A stretch of 64,000 nucleotides of DNA from Rubripirellula lacrimiformis (lineage in GTDB: Bacteria; Planctomycetota; Planctomycetia; Pirellulales; Pirellulaceae): assembly GCF_007741535.1 (NCBI RefSeq), contig NZ_CP036525.1:868001-932000 (forward strand), in the 5' to 3' direction. The position numbers and the translations under genes are program-made. The notes under the pieces are model-generated. The model was not told the origin of the DNA and did not search any database. It saw only the letters and a list, made by a program, of their open reading frames with translations. Positions within the stretch are counted from its first letter, which is position 1. Each line of letters begins with the position of its first letter. Positions 2,664 through 56,941 of this stretch are shown in pieces.

Positions 2664-3926
2664 TTAGAAGACCAGGCCGGCGTCGCCGAGGCGTTTTTTC
2701 GTTTCGGTCATCAACGCGTCTTCGTCGGCTTCGGTTGCAGCGACGTACGTGACGCTGAAACGCAAGAATGATCCGGCGTCATCCCAAGGCACCGTGACGA
2801 TTCCGAACTGTTCGATCAGGTGACGCGTGGCGTCCTCGGCCGCAGCAAATTTCTCGCCGCCCGTGGTGCCCGTGGGCGACTTGGCGTACAGGAAGTAGGT
2901 GCCACCGGGGACTTCGCACTGGAACCCGCATTCTTTCAGGACCGTGACCAGTTTCTTCATGCGGCGAAGATACTTTTCGCGAATCTGTTCGGGGATCGAG
3001 TCGTTGTCCAACGCTGCCGCGGCTGCTTTTTGCGTGGCGATGAACTGGCCACTGTCGCTGTTGTCTTTGACGTCCGAGAACGCGGACACGATTCGCGGGT
3101 GGCCGCAGACGAATCCCATTCGCCATCCGATCATGTCGTAGCCCTTGCTCATCGAGTGGACTTCGACTCCGACGTCCATCGCGCCCGGGGTTTGCAGGAA
3201 GCTAAGCGGTTTGCCGTCGAACGACAGCAGGATGTGGGCGGCGTCCTGGACCACGACGAATTGCTTTTCTTTGGCCAGGGCGACGACCTTTTCGTAGAAC
3301 TCGGGCGTCGCTGTCTTTCCGGTCGGCGAATTCGGGTAGTTCAGGACCATCAGTTTGGTGCGGCGATAGATGTCGTCCGGCACGGCATCCAGGTCGGGCA
3401 GGAAGTTGTTTTCGGCCAACAGCGGCAGTTTGAATACTTCGCCGCCGTAGTAGCGGGTGTGGGTGCCGGCGACCGGGTATCCGGGCACGGTCATCATCGT
3501 GATGTCGCCGGGATTGATGAACACGGCGGGCAGCATCGCGTAGGCTGGCTTGCTGCCGATGCAGTGATTGACTTGGGTTGCCGGGTCCAATTCGACGCCG
3601 AAATTTCGCTTCATGAAATTCGCGGCGGCCTGCTTGTACTCGATCACACCGTTGTCGGCGTAGCCGCGATTTTCGGGCTTGTTGATCTCTGTCGCCATGA
3701 CATCGCGGACCGCTTGGTCAGCCATCGAATCGTTTTCGCCGATTCCGAAGTCCAGCAGGTGGCGATCGGGGTGGTCGGCCAGAGCTTTCCGCTTGGCTCG
3801 TTTGATCTTTTCGAACTTGTAGATCTCCGTGCCCTTGCCGTAGTTGGATCCGCCGATGCGATCAGCGAATAAGGACTGGAAGTACGGGTCGGAATCGCTG
3901 GATTCAGGCTTAGTGGCGGTAGACAT
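2664..3926 (-). CDS. dapL: LL-diaminopimelate aminotransferase (class I/II PLP enzyme)
   Basis: About 420 residues with the fold-type I aminotransferase pattern: LLDFGIGENDSMA near the N-terminus, VPGYPVAG, LNYPNSPTGK and the PLP-lysine region HSMSKGYDMIGWRMGF. Segments such as FGIGxxD, KPENRGY, NPGDI and VxVHSMSK resemble DapL enzymes, which convert tetrahydrodipicolinate to LL-diaminopimelate in one step for lysine and peptidoglycan. Assignment to DapL rather than another aspartate-type aminotransferase is by family resemblance only. The ATG at 3924-3926 is preferred over an upstream TTG at 3938. Monocistronic by appearance. Confidence 0.7.
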   Translation of the reverse strand: MSTATKPESSDSDPYFQSLFADRIGGSNYGKGTEIYKFEKIKRAKRKALADHPDRHLLDFGIGENDSMADQAVRDVMATEINKPENRGYADNGVIEYKQAAANFMKRNFGVELDPATQVNHCIGSKPAYAMLPAVFINPGDITMMTVPGYPVAGTHTRYYGGEVFKLPLLAENNFLPDLDAVPDDIYRRTKLMVLNYPNSPTGKTATPEFYEKVVALAKEKQFVVVQDAAHILLSFDGKPLSFLQTPGAMDVGVEVHSMSKGYDMIGWRMGFVCGHPRIVSAFSDVKDNSDSGQFIATQKAAAAALDNDSIPEQIREKYLRRMKKLVTVLKECGFQCEVPGGTYFLYAKSPTGTTGGEKFAAAEDATRHLIEQFGIVTVPWDDAGSFLRFSVTYVAATEADEDALMTETKKRLGDAGLVF

Positions 3927-7289: not shown

Positions 7290-8241
7290 GTTCAGCCGCA
7301 TGCCCACCGGACCGCGCTTTGATGGCCCGGCGCACGGGGCGATGCCCACGCGGTTAAACGATTTGATGCACGGGGCGTGTTCTCCTTGTCGTTTCACCGC
7401 GTGCCCACCGGGCCGCGCGTTTCCAGGACGTGGACGCACGGGGCGATGCCCACGCGGTTAAACGATTTGATGCACGGGGCGTGCTCTCCCTGTCGTTTCA
7501 CCGCGTGCCCACCGGGCCGCGCGTTTCCAGGACGTGGACGCACGGGGCGATGCCCACGCGGTTAAACGATTGGGCGACCGCGGCGTGTTCTCCCTGTCGT
7601 TTAACCGCGTGCCCAGCGGGCCGCGCGTTTCCAGGACGTGGACGCACGGGGCGATGCCCACGCGGTGAAACGATTTGATGCACGCGGCGTGCTCTCCCTG
7701 TCGTTTCACCGCGTGCCCACCGGGCCGCGCGTTTCCAGGACGTGGACGCACGGGGCGTTGCCCGCGCGGTGAAACGATTTGGCGACCGCGGCGTGCTCTC
7801 CCTGTCGTTTCACCGCGTGCCCACCGGACCGCGCGTTTCCAGGACGTGGACGCGCGGGGCGATGCCCACGCGGTGAAACGATTTGGCGACCGCGGCGGCT
7901 CTCCCTGTCGTTCAGCCGCGTGCCCACCGGGCCGCGCGTTTTCAGGACGTGGGCGCACGGGGCGATGCCCACGCGGTTAAACGATTGGGCGACCGCGGCG
8001 TGCTCTCCCTGTCGTTTCACCGCGTGCCCACCGGGCCGCGCGTTTCCAGGACGTGGACGCGCGGGGCGATGCCCACGCGGTGAAACGATTTGATGCACGG
8101 GGCGTGTTCTCCCTGTCGTTTAACCGCGTGCCCACCGGGCCGCGCGTTTCCAGGACGTGGACGCACGGGGCGATGCCCACGCGGTGAAACGATCTGGCGC
8201 ACGCGGCGTGTTCTCCCTGTCGTTTAACCGCGTGCCCAGCG
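7290..8241. repeat. Cloverleaf repeat array 1, left part (units 1-10, last one interrupted)
   Basis: Units start at 7290, 7391, 7495, 7599, 7703, 7807, 7910, 8014, 8118 and 8222; the period is 103-104 bp after unit 1. A typical unit is 73 bp: arm GTTTCACCGCGTG, mini-hairpin CCCACCGGG, stem CCGCGCG, a 15-nt loop, stem CGCACGG, mini-hairpin GGCGATGCC, arm CACGCGGTTAAAC. The linker of about 31 bp begins GATTTGATGCACGGGGCG or GATTGGGCGACCGCGGCG and ends CTCCCTGTC. Unit 1 carries a different loop (TTGATGG...), like arrays 2 and 3. Unit 10 is cut by the insertion sequence. Long open frames occur in several frames but do not look coding. Confidence 0.95.
8237..8241. other. Left target-site copy CAGCG
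   Basis: CAGCG at 8237-8241 abuts the left end of the insertion sequence and recurs at 9818-9822 on its right. Removing the element plus one copy restores a normal repeat unit (GTGCCCAGCGGG...), which supports a 5-bp target duplication. Confidence 0.75.
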
Positions 8242-9817
8242 AGGCTGTGAAAATTTTGTTTTCCCCAGCTTTGAGTTTCATTTTTGAAGGTGTTTTTCAA
8301 AAATGCGGGACGTGTGAATCTATTTTTGGGGTCAAAGCGGCTGACAGGCCCCTGGGACTCTCGAGCGTCTGGCCGTTTCGAGGTCTTGAGGGCTTCGAGA
8401 AGCCGCTCGAACCTCCACTTTGGTTAACTTTTCGCTGCTACAACGCATGGGTCCCCTATCAGGTTGGGTAAAAATCCTAGGCATTTGAATCGGTTGTAGT
8501 TATTCACTAGCACATGCCAAAGGGTCTGACTCAAAGCCTTTTTCGACCCACGAACCCGGTACTGGTGGAGCCCGCGGTTGCGACATTCGGCGTTGGGGAA
8601 TTCGGCCACCGAAGGGCGTTGCTTATAGATCTTTTGAGCCCCCGCTGTGCCCATCCGTTCTCGAAAGCGTTTCATCGCAGCGCTGTCTCCTGGCTTGGGG
8701 AGATGAGGATCTTTGCCTTCTTCAATTTGCTTTTGAACGCCCTTCAATACCCCGTAAACGGCTGTGCCCGAGGCGTCCATCGAGTCGATATCGGTCGCCT
8801 TGGTAAAGCCGCCATCGACCAGGTATTTCCCGGGCATAACGCCGAAAGTGCTGCAGACCGATTGATACATCGGAAGCATTTGCCCCTGATCGCTGCCCTG
8901 GTTATCGACGCTCACGCCGACGACGATTCGTGTCTCGCCATCGCTGGCGAATTGAACGTTGTAGGCCGGCCGAAAACCACCGTCGGCCATCTTCATGCGC
9001 ACCGCTTCGGGGTCGGTCATCGACGCTCGTGGAGTGGATTTGCTTTTGCGTGACCTCTTCTCCTTGCGACGCCGCTCTAGCTCTTCCAAGTTTTCTTGGG
9101 CCGCCTTGATTCGCTCGATTCGTTCCTTGGCAGCGCGCTGTTGGGCGGCCTGTTTTGCCTTGGATATTTTGGCTGCTTCTTCCTCGGTACGCTCACTGAG
9201 TTCGTTCAAGTAGTCTTCGGCCGCTGCTTGCAACCTTTGGAGTGTCGGTGCCGATCGAAATGAGCCACTGCCAGACGACGCTCGCACTCGCATTCCATCT
9301 TGTCCGATAGTTTCGAGCGTGATTAGCTTCTGGTTCAACAAGGCGGCAATCGAGTCGGCCAGCAGTTTCTCAAGCAGTTCGCTGTTCTCGCTTCGGAAGT
9401 CACTGAGCGTGTGATAGTTGACCGAGACTTTGCCACAGATCCACATGTAGTGAAAATCACGGGTGGTCAATTCAGCGACCCGGCGAGCGCTGCTGATTCC
9501 CTCTAGCGTCGCGTAAAACCATAAGGCGAAGAGAATCCGCGGATCAATCGAGTTGCGTCCCGCTTTGCCCTGTCTGGATTGAATGCGAGTGTAGAGAGGG
9601 CTCAGGTCGAGTGATTCGCAGTACTGCCACACCAATCGGATGCGATGGTCGCTGGCAACGAGTTGATCGAGCGAAAAAAACTGCATCTCGACTTGGGTGC
9701 GTTCTGGGCGGTTGGTGCGGGCCTGACCACGCTGCTGAGCATTGCTTGGAGTTTTCATTGCAGTAATTTAGCGCCAGAAAAGAAACTAGCAACCAACAAC
9801 TCATTTATTCACAGCCT
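8242..9817 (-). mobile_element. IS1182-family-like insertion sequence, 1576 bp
   Basis: The element has a single transposase gene and terminal inverted repeats AGGCTGTGAA (8242-8251) and TTCACAGCCT (9808-9817), flanked by CAGCG direct repeats. It interrupts unit 10 of repeat array 1 after the second base group of the CCCAGCGGG mini-hairpin. A 182-bp noncoding left end precedes the transposase stop. The ends are defined by the restored repeat unit, which gives good confidence in the boundaries. Confidence 0.85.
8424..9758 (-). CDS. IS1182-family transposase
   Basis: A 444-residue DDE transposase. An N-terminal DUF772-like region (QFFSLDQLVASDHRIRLVWQY, then NSIDPRILFALWFYATLEG and YHTLSDFR) is followed by a highly charged Glu/Lys/Arg coiled coil at about residues 190-245. 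The DDE core shows QDGMRVRASSGSG and KYLVDGGFTKATD. The C-terminus has the RNRGLHQYRVRG segment and ends in VNNYNRF, typical of the IS1182 family. The frame is intact with an ATG start, so the copy may be functional. It lies antisense to nothing and is wholly inside the element. Confidence 0.9.
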   Translation of the reverse strand: MKTPSNAQQRGQARTNRPERTQVEMQFFSLDQLVASDHRIRLVWQYCESLDLSPLYTRIQSRQGKAGRNSIDPRILFALWFYATLEGISSARRVAELTTRDFHYMWICGKVSVNYHTLSDFRSENSELLEKLLADSIAALLNQKLITLETIGQDGMRVRASSGSGSFRSAPTLQRLQAAAEDYLNELSERTEEEAAKISKAKQAAQQRAAKERIERIKAAQENLEELERRRKEKRSRKSKSTPRASMTDPEAVRMKMADGGFRPAYNVQFASDGETRIVVGVSVDNQGSDQGQMLPMYQSVCSTFGVMPGKYLVDGGFTKATDIDSMDASGTAVYGVLKGVQKQIEEGKDPHLPKPGDSAAMKRFRERMGTAGAQKIYKQRPSVAEFPNAECRNRGLHQYRVRGSKKALSQTLWHVLVNNYNRFKCLGFLPNLIGDPCVVAAKS

Positions 9818-11015
9818 CAGCGGGCTGCGCGTTTCCAGGATGTGGACGCACGGGGCGATGCCCACGCGGTTAAACGATTTGGTGCACGGGGCGTGTTCTC
9901 CCTGTCGTTTCACCGCGTGCCCAGCGGGCCGCGCGTTTCCAGGATGTGGACGCACGGGGCGATGCCCACGCGGTTAAACGATTTGATGCACGCGGCGTGT
10001 TCTCCTTGTCGTTTCACCGCGTGCCCACCGGACCGCGCGTTTCCAGGACGTGGGCGCACGGGGCGATGCCCGCGCGGTGAAACGAGATGACGCACGCGGC
10101 GTGTTCTCCCTGTCGTTTAACCGCGTGCCCACCGGGCCGCGCGTTTCCAGGATGTGGACGCACGGGGCGATGCCCACGCGGTGAAACGATTTGATGCACG
10201 GGGCGTGTTCTCCCTGTCGTTTAACCGCGTGCCCACCGGGCCGCGCGTTTCCAGGACGTGGACGCACGGGGCGATGCCCACGCGGTTAAACGATTGGGCG
10301 CACGCGGCGTGCTCTCCCTGTCGTTTAACCGCGTGCCCAGCGGGCCGCGCGTTTTCAGGACGTGGGCGCACGGGGCGATGCCCGCGCGGTGAAACGATTT
10401 GGCGACCGCGGCGTGCTCTCCCTGTCGTTTCACCGCGTGCCCACCGGACCGCGCGTTTCCAGGACGTGGACGCGCGGGGCGATGCCCACGCGGTGAAACG
10501 ATTTGGCGACCGCGGCGGCTCTCCCTGTCGTTCAGCCGCGTGCCCACCGGGCCGCGCGTTTTCAGGACGTGGGCGCACGGGGCGATGCCCGCGCGGTGAA
10601 ACGATTTGACGCTTGCGGCGTGCTCTCCCCTGTCGTTTCACCGCGTGCCCACCGGGCCGCGCGTTTCCAGGACGTGGACGCGCGGGGCGATGCCCACGCG
10701 GTTAAACGATTTGATGCACGGGGCGTGCTCTGCTTGTCGTTTCACCGCGTGCCCAACGGGCCGCGCGTTTCCAGGACGTGGACGCACGGGGCGATGCCCA
10801 CGCGGTTAAACGATTTGGCGCACGCGGCGTGCTCTGCTTGTCGTTTCACCGCGTGCCCAGCGGGCCGCGCGTTTCCAGGACGTGGACGCACGGGGCGATG
10901 CCCACGCGGTTAAACGATTTGGCGCACGCGGCGTGCTCTCCCTGGCGTTCAGCCGCGTGCCCAGCGGGCCGCGCGTTTTGACCCGGCGAATGCGGCGTTG
11001 CCCGCGCGGTGAAAC
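9818..11015. repeat. Cloverleaf repeat array 1, right part (rest of unit 10, units 11-21)
   Basis: Continuation of the array after the insertion. Units start at 9907, 10011, 10115, 10219, 10323, 10427, 10530, 10635, 10739, 10843 and 10947. The unit-16/17 block (10427-10634) is nearly identical to the unit-6/7 block on the other side of the IS (7807-8013), including the rare GTTCAGCCGCG arm of units 7 and 17. Unit 21 has a diverged loop and right half, as expected of an array edge. It ends 21 bp before the galT stop codon. Confidence 0.95.
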
Positions 11016-20487: not shown

Positions 20488-21687
20488 GTTTCACCGCGTG
20501 CCCATCGGGCCGCGCGTTGATGGTGCCGTCGCGCGGGGCGATGCCCACGCGGTCAAACGAAAACCCGCGCGACGTCATCCGGTGCGCCTCGTTTAACCGC
20601 GTGCCCAGCGGGCCGCGCGTTGATGGTGCCGACGCGCGGGGCGATGCCCACGCGGTTAAACGAAAACCCTCGCTACGTCATCCGGTGTGTCTCGTTTCAC
20701 CGCGTGCCCAGCGGGCCGCGCGTTGATGGGCCGGCGCGCGGGGCGTTGCCCACGCGGTTAAACGACGATTCACGTTGCGTCATCCGGTTTGGTCCGTTTC
20801 ACCGCGTGCCCATCGGGCCGCGCGTTGATGGGCCGGCGCGCGGGGCGTTGCCCACGCGGTTAAACGAGGGTTCGCGCGACGTCATCCGGTGCGCCTCGTT
20901 TGACCGCGTGCCCAGCGGGCCGCGCGTTGATGGGCTGGCGCGCGGGGCGATGCCCACGCGGTGAAACGAAAACCCACGCTACGTCATCCGGTGCGCCTCG
21001 TTTAACCGCGTGCCCATCGGGCCGCGCGTTGATGGTGCCGGCGCGCGGGGCGTTGCCCACGCGGTGAAACGAAAACCCACGCTACGTCATCCGGTGCGCC
21101 TCGTTTCACCGCGTGCCCAGCGGGCCGCGCTTTGATGGTGCCGACGCGCGGGGCGTTGCCCACGCGGTTAAACGAGGGTTCGCGCGACGTCATCCGGAGC
21201 GCCTCGTTTAACCGCGTGCCCATCGGGCCGCGCGTTGATGGGCCGGCGCGCGGGGCGTTGCCCCCGCGGTTAAACGACGATTCACGTTGCGTCATCCGGT
21301 TTGGTTCGTTTGACCGCGTGCCCAGCGGGCCGCGCGTTGATGGTGCTGGCGCGCGGGGCGTTGCCCACGCGGTTAAACGAAAACCCTCGCGACGTCATCC
21401 GGTGCGCCTCGTTTAACCGCGTGCCCAGCGGGCCGCGCGTTGATGGTGGCGGCGCGCGGGGCGATGCCCCCGCGGTTAAACGACGATTCACGTTGCGTCA
21501 TCCGGTTTGGTTCGTTTAACCGCGTGCCCAGCGGGCCGCGCGTTGATGGTGCTGGCGCGCGGGGCGTTGCCCACGCGGTTAAACGACGATTCACGTTGCG
21601 TCATCCGGTGCGCCTCGTTTAACCGCGTGCTTATCGGGCCTGGCGTTGATGGTGCCGTCGCGCGGGGCGATGCCCACGCGGTGAAAC
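20488..21687. repeat. Cloverleaf repeat array 2 (12 units)
   Basis: Units start at 20488, 20591, 20694, 20796, 20898, 21000, 21103, 21206, 21308, 21411, 21514 and 21617 (period 102-103 bp). A reference 71-bp unit divides as GTTTAACCGCGTG / CCCAGCGGG / CCGCGCG / 13-nt loop TTGATGGTGCCGA / CGCGCGG / GGCGATGCC / CACGCGGTTAAAC with no base left over. The linker of about 32 bp starts GAAAACC or GACGATTC and contains CGTCATCCGG. Unit 12 carries the GTGCTTATCGGG variant seen in array 3. A decayed fragment (GCGGGCCGCGTG) follows to about 21720. The array fills a gap between convergent genes. Confidence 0.95.
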
Positions 21688-23511: not shown

Positions 23512-23729
23512 TCAATCCGCAAGGCGATCCAGTGATCGCTGTCGTTCGATGATTGGGGGGGCAAAGGTTGAGATTCAAGTTTAGCACTGCTGCGCAAGTT
23601 TGGTCAGGTCCAGCCGATTCCGATCTGCTAGCGCGTCGAGAGCGGATCGCGGTTAAACTTAGGTAGCCCCAGGCACCCCGCCTTTTGCCCCCCACCCAAC
23701 GCCCCGTCATCGAAGGTGACCCGATCACC

Positions 23730-42566: not shown

Positions 42567-43729
42567 GTTTCACCGGGTGCCCATCGGGCCGCGCGTTGAT
42601 GGGCTGGCGCGCGGGGCGTTGCCCACGCGGTTAAACGAAGATTCGAGTTGCGTCATCCGGTATATCTCGTTTAACCGCGTGCCCAACGGGCCGCGCGTTG
42701 ATGGGCTGGCGCGCGGGGCGTTGCCCACGCGGTTAAACGACGATTCGCGTTGCGTCATCCGGGTTTGGTTCGTTTAACCGCGTGCCCACCGGGCCGCGCG
42801 TTGTTGGGCTGGCGCGCGGGGCGATGCCCACGCGGTTAAACGACGATTCGCGTTGCGTCATCGGGTGTGGTTCGTTTAACCGCGTGCCCATCGGGCCGCG
42901 CGTTGTTGGTGCGGCGCGCGGGGCGTTGCCCACGCGGTTAAACGACGATTCGCGTTGCGTCATCCGGGTTTGGTTCGTTTAACCGCGTGCCCACCGGGCC
43001 GCGCGTTGTTGGGCTGGCGCGCGGGGCGATGCCCACGCGGTTAAACGACGATTCACGTTGCGTCATTCGGTGTGGTTCGTTTAACCGCGTGCCCATCGGG
43101 CCGCGCGTTGTTGGGCTGGCGCGCGGGGCGTTGCCCACGCGGTGAAACGACGATTCACGTTGCGTCATCGGGTGTGGTTCGTTTCACTGCGTGCTTATCG
43201 GGCCAGGCGTTGAAGGGCTGGCGCGCGGGGCGTTGCCCACGCGGTTAAACGACGATTCACGTTGCGTCATCGGGTGTGGTTCGTTTCACCGCGTGCTTAT
43301 CGGGCCTGGCGTTGATGATGCGGCGCGCGGGGCGATGCCCACGCGGTTAAACGACGATTCACGCTGCGTCATCGGGTGTGGTTCGTTTCACCGCGTGCTT
43401 ATCGGGCCTGGCGTTGATGGTGCGGCGCGCGGGGCGTTGCCCACGCGGTTAAACGACGATTCACGTTGCGTCATCCGGTTTGGTTCGTTTCACCGCGTGC
43501 TTATCGGGCCTGGCGTTGATGATGAGGCGCGCGGGGCGTTGCCCACGCGGTTAAACGACGATTCACGTTGCGTCACCCGGTATGGTTCGTTTCACCGCGT
43601 GCTTATCGGGCCTGGCGTTGATGCGCCGGCGCGCGGGGCGATGCCCACGCGGTTAAACGACGATTCACGCTGCGTCATCGGGTGTGGTTCGTTTCACCGC
43701 GTGCTTATCGGGCCTGGCGTTGATGGTGC
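42567..43729. repeat. Cloverleaf repeat array 3 (11 units plus a truncated twelfth)
   Basis: Units start at 42567, 42669, 42772, 42874, 42977, 43079, 43181, 43283, 43385, 43487, 43589 and 43691 (period 102-103 bp). Units 1-6 have the normal CCCANCGGG mini-hairpin; units 7-12 have CTTATCGGG and CCTGGCG or CCAGGCG in place of CCGCGCG. The linker of about 32 bp begins GACGATTC and contains CGTCATC before a TTGGTTC or TGTGGTTC end. Unit 12 stops in its loop at about 43729. The array lies between the 3' ends of the M14 peptidase and the GDPD gene. Confidence 0.95.
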
Positions 43730-49811: not shown

Positions 49812-52385
49812 TTACTCGGGCAAACCGATCGCGAACAGCTTGTCTTTGGTGCTGATGTAGATCGTCTTGTTCGCACCGACAGGCGTGCTGTACACGCTGC
49901 TGCCCATGTTGATCTCTTCCATCGGTTCGTTGTTTTCAGCGCCGAATTCGAACACGGACACGTCGCCGTCTTCGTCACCGATGAACACACGACCGTCTGC
50001 GATCAGGGCACTGCCCCAGCTTTGGGCCAGCATGTCGTAGGTGAAGTGCACGATGGGCTTGCCATCGTCGGTTCCCTTGGCATCCAAACAGTGGACCAAC
50101 CCCGAGAAGTCTGCGATGTACAGCACGTTGTCCTTGATTGCACAGGTGCCGATAGAACGGTGCATTTCTTCTTCGAAATCGATCTCTTCGTCGCCATTGG
50201 AATCGAACATCGAATAGTGCCAGACGACGGCCGAGTTCGGGTTGTCGACTTCGACTTCGCCGTTCTCCGGTTCAACCGCTTGCACGCGTCGGTGAGCGAT
50301 CGGTACGCGTTTGCCGTCTTCCAGTTTCATCGCCAATGTTGGCGACACATCACCGCGTTTGTTGGGGTCGATGCACCACAGGTGGCCTTCGCCTTCGCCG
50401 TGTTCCGGGTCTTGTCCAACGGCGATGTAAACCAATCCGTCGTAAGCCACAGGAGTCGCGATCAGATTGTTGCGAGTTCCTTCGCCGCCCAGTTTCCAGA
50501 CGGTGGTTTTAGGATTGCAGTCGAATTGCCACAGCAGTTCAGGTTTGCCGTCGTTGCCGCGGGTGGCCGCGAAGCTGTACAGGATGCCGTCGCCACCAGC
50601 GAACAGGACTTGGGGAACGCCTTCGAAAACGCCGATCGCAGGGCTGGACCACTGACCGTGCAGAATGTTGCGGCCCGGGGAAGCATCGCTCCACAGCAAT
50701 TCGCCGGTGTTCTTGTCGATGCAGATGAAACTAGGTGCTTCGGGAGCAGGCAAATTCAAGTGCGATTCGTCCAACCCATTCGAAGTGTTCACGAACAGGA
50801 GGTCGCCATAGGAGGTCACGCTGCAGGCACACATGTTGTGCTGGCTGACACCCATCTCGGGGCCCATCATGTCGAACACCCAGATCACGTCGGCATCACG
50901 TTTGTCGCTGACGCCCAGTGCTTTGGTAAACATGATCCGTGGGCCGATTTGCTTGATCGTGATCGTGCGATCGGTGCCGCCGAAGTTGCCGGTGGCTTTC
51001 CAGACTTTGCCTTCGGTGACGGTTTCGACTTTGGCTTCGCCTTGGAGCGCTTCGCCGGCTTCGGCCAAAACCGATTTGGCGGCGTTCGAAAGACTGCCGT
51101 CGGCCAGTTCCGACAAAGTTTGTGCATGGGGTTCGGCGCCGGGGCCGGCGTTCATGATTTGGGCGACGTTGGCCGATTCGCCGACGACTGGACCATCGTC
51201 TTCACCGTCGTGGAATCCCTTGGTGTCCAAACAGCGGACTTCGCCGCGGTTGGTGACAAACCACAGTCGGTCGCCTTCGACCAACGGTGCACAGCAGATG
51301 CCCTGCAGGGGCCAGTCATGGACGCGGCCGGTGATCAGTTTCTCGCTGCTGTGTTGCCACAGGAAATCGCCGTTCTTTTCGTCAAACGCCAACAAGCATC
51401 CCAGGTCGACATCCGATGGGTAACGTTGGATGTGTCCAGCGCCGTTGTTGGTCCCAACATAAACTTGGCCATCCGCGACGACGGGGTTTCCGTAGGTTTG
51501 GCTGCCCAGGTTGGCGTACCAACGAATGTTTTCGGCCTTGGCGTTGTCCCAGTCGCCGGTGCGGCGATCGAATTTGCCGATGTTCCATGATTCCGGCAAC
51601 CCTTCGACGCCGGGGGCGTTGTTGCGTTCACGGGTCCCGCCCCACTGAGGCCAGTCACCGCCAGCGGCTTGGACTTCTGCCGGTGGGCCCGGTTCCTTGA
51701 CGTCCGAAGTCACCAGAGCGACGGCGGATTCAGCTTCGCTAGCTTTGGCATCGGCAGCCGCCTGCTTGTCCATTTCTGCTTTCTCGGCAGCGGCTTTGTC
51801 GGCAGCGGCTTTATCGGCTTTCGCTTTCTCAGCAGCGGCTTTCGCGTCAGCAGCAACCTTGTCGGCTTTCGCTTTCTCAGCAGCAGCTTTTACAGCAGCA
51901 ACCTTGTCGGCAGCGGCCTTTTCAGCGGCGGCTTTCTCAGCAGCAACCTTGTCAGCGGCAACTTTGTCAGCGGCGGCTTTCGCTTCGGCAGCAGCAGCTT
52001 CGGCGGCAGCGACTTCGGTCGCCTTGGCTGCGGCGGCAGCGGCTGCGGCCATTTCAGCTTTGGCTGCTGTTTCTTCCGCGATCGCAGCGGCCTTCGCCTC
52101 GGCGACGTTTTCGGCCGGGGGCACCGGTTCGGCTTTCTTGGCAGCAGACTTTTCGACTTCGGCGGTTTCCGCTGCCGGCATCTCCACAGCGGCCGACGGG
52201 CCACCGGTGGTGACGTTGCTGTCCGACGTGGTCACGTTGCTGTCGGCGTCATCGTCGACGGACGTCGACGTATTGGCGGTGATCGGTTCGGGCGGTTTGC
52301 AGCCACTCATGGCGACGGTCGTCGCGCTTCCCAACAGCGAAGCGAACAACAGCAGGGCCCAGGTCGAGAGTTCTTTTTTAAGCAT
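49812..52385 (-). CDS. Lipoprotein with Ala/Lys-rich coil and PQQ-like beta-propeller
   Basis: An 857-residue protein. The signal ends in a lipobox with Cys29 (MSGCKPPEP). Residues about 75-220 are an Ala/Lys/Glu-rich helical repeat (AAAEKAKADKVAADAK and similar), likely a rod or wall-spanning coil. The rest is a PQQ-like beta-propeller starting WPQWGGTRERNNAPGVEGLPESW, with repeats of the type NGDFLWQHSSE, TGELLWSDASPG and CLDAKGTDDG. An insert contains an EF-hand-like loop DSNGDEEIDFEE. Whether PQQ binds is not known; such propellers in planctomycetes are often noncatalytic. The neighbour upstream is a second propeller protein. Confidence 0.85.
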   Translation of the reverse strand: MLKKELSTWALLLFASLLGSATTVAMSGCKPPEPITANTSTSVDDDADSNVTTSDSNVTTGGPSAAVEMPAAETAEVEKSAAKKAEPVPPAENVAEAKAAAIAEETAAKAEMAAAAAAAAKATEVAAAEAAAAEAKAAADKVAADKVAAEKAAAEKAAADKVAAVKAAAEKAKADKVAADAKAAAEKAKADKAAADKAAAEKAEMDKQAAADAKASEAESAVALVTSDVKEPGPPAEVQAAGGDWPQWGGTRERNNAPGVEGLPESWNIGKFDRRTGDWDNAKAENIRWYANLGSQTYGNPVVADGQVYVGTNNGAGHIQRYPSDVDLGCLLAFDEKNGDFLWQHSSEKLITGRVHDWPLQGICCAPLVEGDRLWFVTNRGEVRCLDTKGFHDGEDDGPVVGESANVAQIMNAGPGAEPHAQTLSELADGSLSNAAKSVLAEAGEALQGEAKVETVTEGKVWKATGNFGGTDRTITIKQIGPRIMFTKALGVSDKRDADVIWVFDMMGPEMGVSQHNMCACSVTSYGDLLFVNTSNGLDESHLNLPAPEAPSFICIDKNTGELLWSDASPGRNILHGQWSSPAIGVFEGVPQVLFAGGDGILYSFAATRGNDGKPELLWQFDCNPKTTVWKLGGEGTRNNLIATPVAYDGLVYIAVGQDPEHGEGEGHLWCIDPNKRGDVSPTLAMKLEDGKRVPIAHRRVQAVEPENGEVEVDNPNSAVVWHYSMFDSNGDEEIDFEEEMHRSIGTCAIKDNVLYIADFSGLVHCLDAKGTDDGKPIVHFTYDMLAQSWGSALIADGRVFIGDEDGDVSVFEFGAENNEPMEEINMGSSVYSTPVGANKTIYISTKDKLFAIGLPE

Positions 52386-55987: not shown

Positions 55988-56941
55988 ATGAAGCGGACTA
56001 TCATGACTTTGACCATGGTTCTTGGCTGTACTTTATGTACCCAGAGCTTTGGATTTGACCTTCTGGATCGTATGCTCGGAATCAAGGGCTGCGGCAGTGC
56101 TGCCAGCTGCTGTGATACCGGTTGCGACATCCCATCGTGTGCAGTGGAGCCGAATTGCGGCTGCGAAGCACCATCCTGTGACACCGGTTGCAACAGCTGC
56201 GACAAGGGTTGCGGACTGTTGGGCAAGCTGCACGCCAAAAGCTGCCTCAGCGAGCCAAACTGTGGCTGCGAAGCACCAGCTTGTGGTTGCGAAGTGCCAT
56301 CCTGCGACACCGGCTGCAACAGCTGTGACAAAGGCTGTGGACTGTTGGGCAAACTGCACGCCAAAAGCTGCCTGAGCGAGCCGACCTGCGGCTGCGAAGC
56401 ACCTACTTGTGGCTGCGAAGCTCCTGCACCTTGCGGTTGCGAATCCGTTCCTTCCTGCGACAGTGGCTGTGGCTGCTCGACCAAGAAGTGTGGATTGCTG
56501 TCGAAGATGTTCTCGTGCAACAAAGGTTGCGACGCTGGCTGTGACAGCAGCTGTGGCGGATGTGCCATCGAACCGTCTTGCGGTTTCGAAGTTGCATCTT
56601 GCGACAGTGGTTGCGGTTGCTCGGCACCTAAGTGCAAGATCGGCAACGGCCAACTGCTGAGCCGCTTGTTCGGCAACCTGGGCCACAAGGGTTGTGGCTG
56701 CGACAGCGGCTGTGACGCTGGCTGTGGTTGCTCGGCTGAACCTACCTGCGGCATCGACGCACCTTGCGGTTGCTCGGCTCCTGCATCGTCCTGCGGTTGC
56801 TCCGGTGGAATGCAATCCGCACCAGTCGCAGCTCCTCACATGGACGCTGCTCCTATGCCTCCGGCCCCTATCGTGGACCCGAGTGCAAGCGTGACACAAA
56901 AGCGTCGCGTCGTTCAGGCCAGTGCCGTCTTCACCCGCTGA
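55988..56941 (+). CDS. Exported cysteine-rich repeat protein
   Basis: A 317-residue protein with a short signal peptide (TIMTLTMVLGCTLCTQSFGF). The mature part has about one Cys per five residues in patterns such as CGCEAPSCDTGCNSCDKGC and CDSGCGCS. A 42-residue block (with GLLGKLHAKSCLSEP) occurs twice in a row. The Cys density, Gly, and export suggest a disulfide-linked wall or surface component; cysteine-rich proteinaceous envelopes are known in planctomycetes, but this protein's role is inference. The ATG at 55988 is preferred over a GTG at 55979 because the ribosome site spacing is better. The C-terminus (about 270-317) is Ala/Pro-rich. Confidence 0.85.
   Translation: MKRTIMTLTMVLGCTLCTQSFGFDLLDRMLGIKGCGSAASCCDTGCDIPSCAVEPNCGCEAPSCDTGCNSCDKGCGLLGKLHAKSCLSEPNCGCEAPACGCEVPSCDTGCNSCDKGCGLLGKLHAKSCLSEPTCGCEAPTCGCEAPAPCGCESVPSCDSGCGCSTKKCGLLSKMFSCNKGCDAGCDSSCGGCAIEPSCGFEVASCDSGCGCSAPKCKIGNGQLLSRLFGNLGHKGCGCDSGCDAGCGCSAEPTCGIDAPCGCSAPASSCGCSGGMQSAPVAAPHMDAAPMPPAPIVDPSASVTQKRRVVQASAVFTR

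Follow-up and report, generated by a model that had tools for sequence, protein, structure and literature searches.

A GTTTAAC-tagged REPIN in satellite-like arrays of Rubripirellula lacrimiformis and its candidate single-strand-DNA transposase

Repeat arrays of the window

The window analysed here, 64,000 nucleotides of the Rubripirellula lacrimiformis genome (8.54 Mb, one contig), contains a 71-bp repeat unit organised in four arrays (Table 1). In the whole window there are 45 left (A-type) and 44 right (B-type) halves, which form 43 uninterrupted units and one further unit split by an insertion sequence (IS); the 45 occurrences counted in an earlier note on this DNA are correct for left halves. 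At 23632, away from the arrays, there is one more, weak A-type match (7 mismatches). Units of 69-73 bp recur with periods of 101-105 bp, and the arm motif GTTTMACCGCGTG is matched 90 times at up to 2 mismatches, against 4.65±2.07 matches (largest 10) in 100 dinucleotide shuffles of the window.

Table 1. Positions of the repeat arrays, the insertion sequence and the recombinase genes (window coordinates unless a contig is given)
Feature	Position	Strand	Description
REPIN array 1	7290..8240	+	9 complete units and the left part of the IS-split unit (8222-8240)
IS	8241..9818		1578 bp; ends GAGGCTGTGAA/TTCACAGCCTC; inserted in an A-half loop (AGC)
IS target duplication	8238-8240 and 9819-9821		3 bp
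IS transposase gene	8424..9758	-	Pfam DUF772, 1e-13
REPIN array 2	9819..11015	+	right part of the split unit and 11 units
REPIN array 3	20488..21687	+	12 A-B units of 70-71 bp, period 102-103 bp
Example type A REP half	20591..20617	+	GTTTAAC tag and bulged hairpin, ANC loop
Example type B REP half (inverted)	20635..20661	-	tag and hairpin, inner stem GGGC/GCCC
REPIN array 4	42567..43726	+	11 units and a terminal half at 43691
Y1 transposase gene	G000:C1:5222195-5222806		204 aa; 4.3 Mb from the window; flanked by 3 halves and, on the opposite side, 13
Integron-integrase matches	G000:C1:2970738-2971676 and 192198-193013		above the TIGR02249 cut-off

The intergenic position of these four arrays was checked through the ORFs that border them, seven of eight of which carried Pfam domains when scanned, while the eighth is conserved in congeners. 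Mechanically called ORFs of at least 150 aa cross arrays 1, 2 and 4 and were rejected as genes because most periods are not multiples of three. No tRNA or tmRNA was found in the window. Elsewhere in it, tandem repeats of 15/45 bp and 126 bp (51778-52049, 56155-56421) overlap long ORFs.

Arrays 1 and 2 have equal periods and similar spacers (0.84) and look like one array interrupted by the IS. The genome holds 12 copies of this IS, which fall into two subgroups with 75% identity across their aligned part. All 12 occupy A-half loops and none is inserted in a B half; the 3-bp flanks are identical in 11 copies and differ in one. No copy was found in G021, G027 or G058, three other genomes searched. 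Insertion of ISs into REPs is known for ISRm22, ISPpu9 and IS1397, with ISRm22 at the palindrome axis (PMC1525189); unlike the elements described in that text, the present IS has a DUF772 transposase, a 3-bp duplication that is the loop itself, and a complete restriction to A-type halves.

Array 4 contains a run of six consecutive A halves (43181-43691) with an identical decay (GCTTATCGGGCC), which is also found once in array 3, in its last unit (21617-21645). Since the same decayed half recurs in successive units, tandem copying proceeds whether the hairpin is intact or not.

REP halves, their distribution and a candidate transposase

The seven blocks into which the earlier note divided the 71-bp unit are present as described. 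The unit consists of two inverted REP halves of 27 nt, each with the tag TCGTTTAAC followed by a hairpin of 4 bp, a bulged T, 4 bp and a 3-nt ANC loop. Type A reads GTTTAAC followed by CGCG-T-GCCC-ANC-GGGC-CGCG, and type B has the inner stem GGGC/GCCC instead. The bulged-T hairpin with its 3-nt loop is also the predicted single-stranded DNA fold of each half, at an energy only 1.6-2.1 sd below that of shuffles. The two letters directly before the tag are T and C, conserved in 661/667 and 660/667 halves respectively, and its position 5 is other than A, mostly C, in 92/321 A and 91/321 B halves. Short palindromic hairpins in many copies, with an inverted doublet as the unit, are the hallmarks of REPs and REPINs, although the GTAG-like tag usually found 5' of the hairpin is replaced here by TCGTTTAAC. 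The earlier note did not recognise the family; it is recognisable as a REP/REPIN family with a RAYT-like transposase.

With up to 2 mismatches allowed, the left-half pattern is matched 499 times across the genome and the reversed-pattern control not at all. The stretches examined for arrays hold 324 units, against those 499 left-half matches genome-wide, in at least 43 clusters, at least 32 of which have three or more units and the largest 21; 321 of 322 pairs there are A-B. Periods and spacers are array-specific, with a spacer identity of 0.83 within and 0.52 between arrays; the commonest spacers measure 20-62 bp, and a 92-bp spacer includes an additional half. Single A halves lacking a B partner are also arranged in tandem, at L155 6244-6720 (G000:C1, ~4.300 Mb; ten copies, period ~50 bp) and at L139 6468-7125. 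A replication-strand bias of the element was considered and rejected, both orientations being present among the matches listed.

In other genomes the element occurs mostly as dispersed copies. The exact pattern was matched in 106 stretches of genome contigs, all planctomycete and one from 'Candidatus Kuenenia stuttgartiensis', in a scan that may omit the R. lacrimiformis genome itself. At up to 2 mismatches the element is present in 8/99 related genomes, R. lacrimiformis included, and in 2/22 within the genus; genome G027 has 138 matches on one contig, with short tandem arrays there too. The halves in other genomes are inverted around a variable middle of ~0 to ~200 bp, and 84 inverted pairs comprise 68 A/B, 15 A/A and 1 B/B, with 37 halves unpaired. 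At several loci of the metagenome-assembled genome LH-05nov19-79 (L003, L025, L034, L092 and others) the middle is made of microsatellite-like ATTTGAA/ATTTGAG runs, with a similar CACGCGGTTGGCATTGGCTCG frequently present upstream of the element. At array 3 of the window, 1353 bp separate the bordering ORF from a methyltransferase gene. Among nine congener loci, three (G001, G021, G002) hold both bordering genes with a gap of ~25 to 120 bp between tblastn hits, and no half was found in that gap in any of the three, four matches of 1-7 mismatches in the G021 stretch being outside it. The array site is empty in these three congeners.

The R. lacrimiformis genome has 5 Y1_Tnp matches, and only the weakest, at 5,222,435, has the element beside it. 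The 204-aa product of this gene (Table 1) scores below the cut-offs of both relevant models, with 21.6 bits against the Pfam Y1_Tnp cut-off of 23 and 46 bits (4e-12) against the cut-off of 80 for NCBIfam REP_Tyr_transpos (NF047646), a model that matches 9/9 scanned members of its subfamily at E 0.01. H102, H104, the presumed catalytic Y172, N176 and P177 are invariant in 9/9 aligned sequences, which gives the HUH and tyrosine expected of a RAYT. Seven of the eight weak matches in a PDB profile search are Y1-type transposases (best E 0.018; TnpAREP 4er8, E 0.064), whereas a PDB search with the single sequence gave nothing convincing, and an AlphaFold model of the G100 homologue from a two-row alignment (pLDDT 32) was set aside.

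A search of 29 genomes gave eight homologues at 44-60% identity and five weaker matches, and the subfamily is present in at least 20/392 genomes of the phylum at 1e-20 (best 8 candidates per genome scored). The G100 homologue (60% identical) has two element units on one side, within ~320 bp. The transposase genes of G105, G049, G058, G103, G099 and G104 lie between other repeats, each copy of which starts with GTTTAAC or GTTTGAC, and in G102 the gene is accompanied by a different 31-bp inverted repeat. In a tree of 45 sequences the 12 members tagged GTTTAAC or GTTTGAC form one clade (100/99), and the adjoining branches are mostly TTTAGC or untyped; the tags were assigned by eye, some TTTAGC rows failed the automatic test or had mixed copies (L202), the outer rows include long branches, and L194, L205, L222 and rows shorter than 140 aa were dropped. 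Besides the genes of R. lacrimiformis and G100, this clade holds ten members (those of the six genomes just named, G378, G490 twice and G046) with other repeats that carry GTTTAAC or GTTTGAC tags. Flanking cognate REPs, as expected of a RAYT, thus stand on both sides of the R. lacrimiformis gene and on one side of the G100 gene, while the other members have other repeats with these tags.

The association was also scored automatically: TTTA[AG]C within repeats on both sides of the gene was found at 18/41 subfamily loci, compared with 0/30 other Y1 loci (2/30 on one side), and 23/41 subfamily loci failed. This test omitted L188-L190 and L192 (distant matches), L194 (a duplicate of L179) and L225, and it misses G103, G104 and G100, whose repeats are visible in other listings; L205 and L222 belong to a single gene in two pieces.

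Several observations count against the link between element and transposase. The element itself flanks only 2/12 clade members; in the same 99 genomes it occurs in 8 and the transposase subfamily in 14, with both in 2; G027 yielded no homologue in either search (31/38 candidates scored in one); and G099, G103 and G104 hold the element, yet their transposase genes carry other hairpins. This weak co-occurrence may mean that copies outlive their enzyme, or that they are served in trans by a related enzyme that shares the tag.

Other Y1 genes were rejected as mobilisers. No half with both tag and hairpin was found at the 30 loci of stronger Y1 transposases examined, out of 105 Y1_Tnp matches; at up to 9 mismatches these loci have 0-2 matches each, with a shuffled mean of 0.39 in the subfamily loci. 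Among all 5 R. lacrimiformis matches (L119, L129 with two, L168, L169) and all 5 from G027 (L109, L121, L132, L170, L171) the element lies only at L169. Other repeat families were found at several of 8 Y1 loci examined, and other planctomycete Y1 genes, at L109, L116, L121, L123 and L132, have abundant repeats of quite different families on their flanks.

Taken together, the unit is very probably a REPIN with a RAYT-like transposase as its candidate mobiliser, subsequently multiplied into arrays by tandem duplication. In the proposed mechanism the 204-aa transposase, or a close relative in trans, would, like TnpAREP, recognise tag and hairpin on single-stranded DNA and carry the REPIN to new sites. 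There the element would be amplified together with its neighbouring sequence, the array-specific spacer, by tandem duplication and homogenised into arrays of up to 21 units. A variant in which the transposase makes the arrays directly, for example by rolling-circle-like copying of REPIN and flank primed at the REP, is improbable. HUH enzymes are described as leaving a 3'-OH that may prime replication (PMC8266576) and arrays exist at many loci, but homogeneity within arrays is what unequal exchange is expected to produce, and tandem amplification looks passive given the six copies of the decayed half in array 4. Little more credence is given to the fuller version, in which a GTTTARC-reading branch of REP transposases actively builds the satellite by HUH-primed copying of REPIN and flank and the loop-specific IS has adapted to it.

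The conserved fold and alternative readings

The earlier note regarded the whole unit as a cloverleaf under selection, and the covariation it called for was analysed in 321 A-B units of the genome by comparing observed pairs with column permutations. In the outer stem of the B half 1262/1284 pairs form, against 1146±5.6 (largest 1162) after permutation. This signal is that of position 11/24, which is G-C in 250 units, T-A in 67 and other in 4, the T-A form being spread over 12 arrays, and position 10/25 adds 8 further T-A pairs. Of the 69 units with T at B11, 67 are T-A and 2 T-C within the B half, while the partner A half keeps G in 68/69. Column permutation ignores relatedness, for which reason the 11/24 signal, although seen in 12 arrays, may rest on few events. 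No excess pairing was detected in the A outer stem (1255 versus 1255.1±0.4) or the B inner stem (1272 versus 1272.1±0.3), and the A inner stem is at 1241 versus 1237.3±1.2. The compensatory changes of the hairpin are those of the B outer stem in this genome and the swap of the inner stem between A and B. Elements of other genomes are well paired, but most of their pairs vary too little for such a comparison, and the B outer stem is without excess there.

For the pairs that would join the two halves the result differs. The outer 13-bp arm of the cloverleaf has no covariation between halves (3792/4173 versus 3794±5.5, permuted within arrays, 321 units), its positions other than 5 stand at 3605/3852 versus 3602±2.0, and central positions 24-29 reach 1658/1926 versus 1656.5±0.8, an excess of ~1.5 cells. 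The A/C change at position 5 of the arm is uncompensated, as the earlier note had remarked, with 187/321 units concordant against 191.8±4.7 permuted within arrays. Covariation accordingly exists within the B half, is absent between halves in the outer arm and almost absent in the central stem, and neither the arm nor the central stem is clearly kept paired between the halves. The mini-hairpins of the earlier note are genuine, as CCC/GGG in one half type is replaced by GGC/GCC in the other. An outer arm at permutation level, together with B11/B24 changes compensated within the B half, indicates that selection most likely acts on the hairpin within each half. As a selected fold the cloverleaf was rejected on covariation; it is a by-product of inverted REP pairs, its arms being complementary because the unit consists of two inverted copies of one tagged REP.

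One alternative, a four-way-junction RNA selected as such and processed from the arrays, is very unlikely. In its favour is the predicted minimum-energy RNA fold of the 71-mer, a four-way junction (-44.0 kcal/mol, with -36.8 for the exact cloverleaf of the earlier note), although the minimum for single-stranded DNA is a long hairpin with interior loops (-28.9, against -24.4 for the cloverleaf). In addition to the missing covariation of the arm, the B11/B24 changes break both the arm and the central stem, Rfam gave 0 matches in the window above the gathering score, unpaired halves and tandem arrays of single halves occur, and the middle segment varies from ~0 to ~200 bp between units of other genomes.

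There is as little reason to read the unit as an ordinary terminal-inverted-repeat MITE mobilised by a DDE transposase, whose autonomous partner would have TCGTTTAACC ends around a DDE gene. Inverted-repeat units are dispersed in several genomes and an IS is associated with the arrays, but target-site duplications are not in excess around 80 units of other genomes at three assumed boundaries, and the IS, whose ends (GAGGCTGTGAA) are unrelated, is a guest inside the loop.

Least credible is the reading as attC-like sites of a chromosomal integron, folded single-strand recombination sites. The attC arms have the consensus RYYYAAC ... GTTRRRY, which GTTTAAC/GTTAAAC fit, and the genome has integron-integrase matches above cut-off at two places (Table 1), but position 5 of the tag varies as described above, the commonest spacers, at the lengths given above, are not gene cassettes, the tag becomes TTTAGC around related transposases and no longer fits, and no half lies within 1.5 kb of the best R. 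lacrimiformis integrase match, the one examined of the two there, or of the one in G058 (L248, L249). An array adjoining intI with gene cassettes is therefore not what was found at the one R. lacrimiformis match examined. A partial integrase match below cut-off in G100 (L250) has one half in its stretch, and R. lacrimiformis has many other tyrosine recombinase matches, some apparently duplicated.

Relation to known REP systems

The REPIN reading places the unit beside the REPIN/BIME-RAYT systems of Pseudomonas fluorescens SBW25 and E. coli, which, as their descriptions state, share inverted REP doublets, a tag 5' of a short hairpin, a bulge in the stem (E. coli), a RAYT gene near its own REPs and ordered tandem clusters that include flanks (PMC3116915, PMC8266576). 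TnpAREP is reported to recognise both tag and bulge (PMC8266576). Ordered REPIN clusters with their flanks are described in SBW25, where the largest consists of four REPINs and one REP (PMC3116915); here, by contrast, the tag is GTTTAAC rather than GTAG, and at least 32 clusters have three or more units, up to 21.

Among the TnpAY1 transposases, class 3 is described as occurring mainly in Planctomycetes, Acidobacteria and Proteobacteria, with a CnGA foot and a Y motif ending in EQ, and REPs of class 3 and subclass 2.6 as lacking GT[AG]G (PMC6006769). The present system shares with class 3 its atypical REPs without GT[AG]G, high copy numbers in some hosts and the HVH and W[TA] motifs. It differs from class 3 in the YVxxNP of 8/9 aligned sequences (YIEQNP in L191) and the GTTTAAC-like tag; the Y----Q motif and the CnGA foot were not found, NP following the Y motif in 9/9. 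The text of a further survey describes GTAG and CGTC REP superfamilies, tyrosine transposases flanked by TIRs, and remarks that in R. baltica numerous tyrosine transposases are flanked by repeats (PMC3733652). Those systems and this one have in common REP dimers made of unlike partners, and tyrosine transposases flanked by repeats other than GTAG REPs, whereas CGTC REPs have no associated transposase and differ in tag, stem and loop. This distinction is drawn from the text of the survey, and the present repeat may yet match one of the TIR sequences in its Figure 9. No description of a GTTTAAC-tagged REP was found in the titles, abstracts and text passages searched, although one may already be listed in figures or supplements, and the passages of PMC12306157 and PMC6749651 held nothing on such a repeat.

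On the evidence of its sequences, this is a REPIN family whose tag and putative transposase clade are distinct from GTAG systems and which has expanded to satellite-like arrays in this genome, and its spread is most likely the work of a distinct branch of transposases acting on single-stranded DNA. The REP-RAYT world is thereby extended beyond the GTAG tag and, as the tag changes along the transposase tree between GTTTAAC and TTTAGC, the code between tag and enzyme can be tested by swaps. Furthermore, the loop-targeting IS offers an independent readout of hairpin recognition, and the genome of R. lacrimiformis provides a natural case of REPINs grown to hundreds of tandem units.
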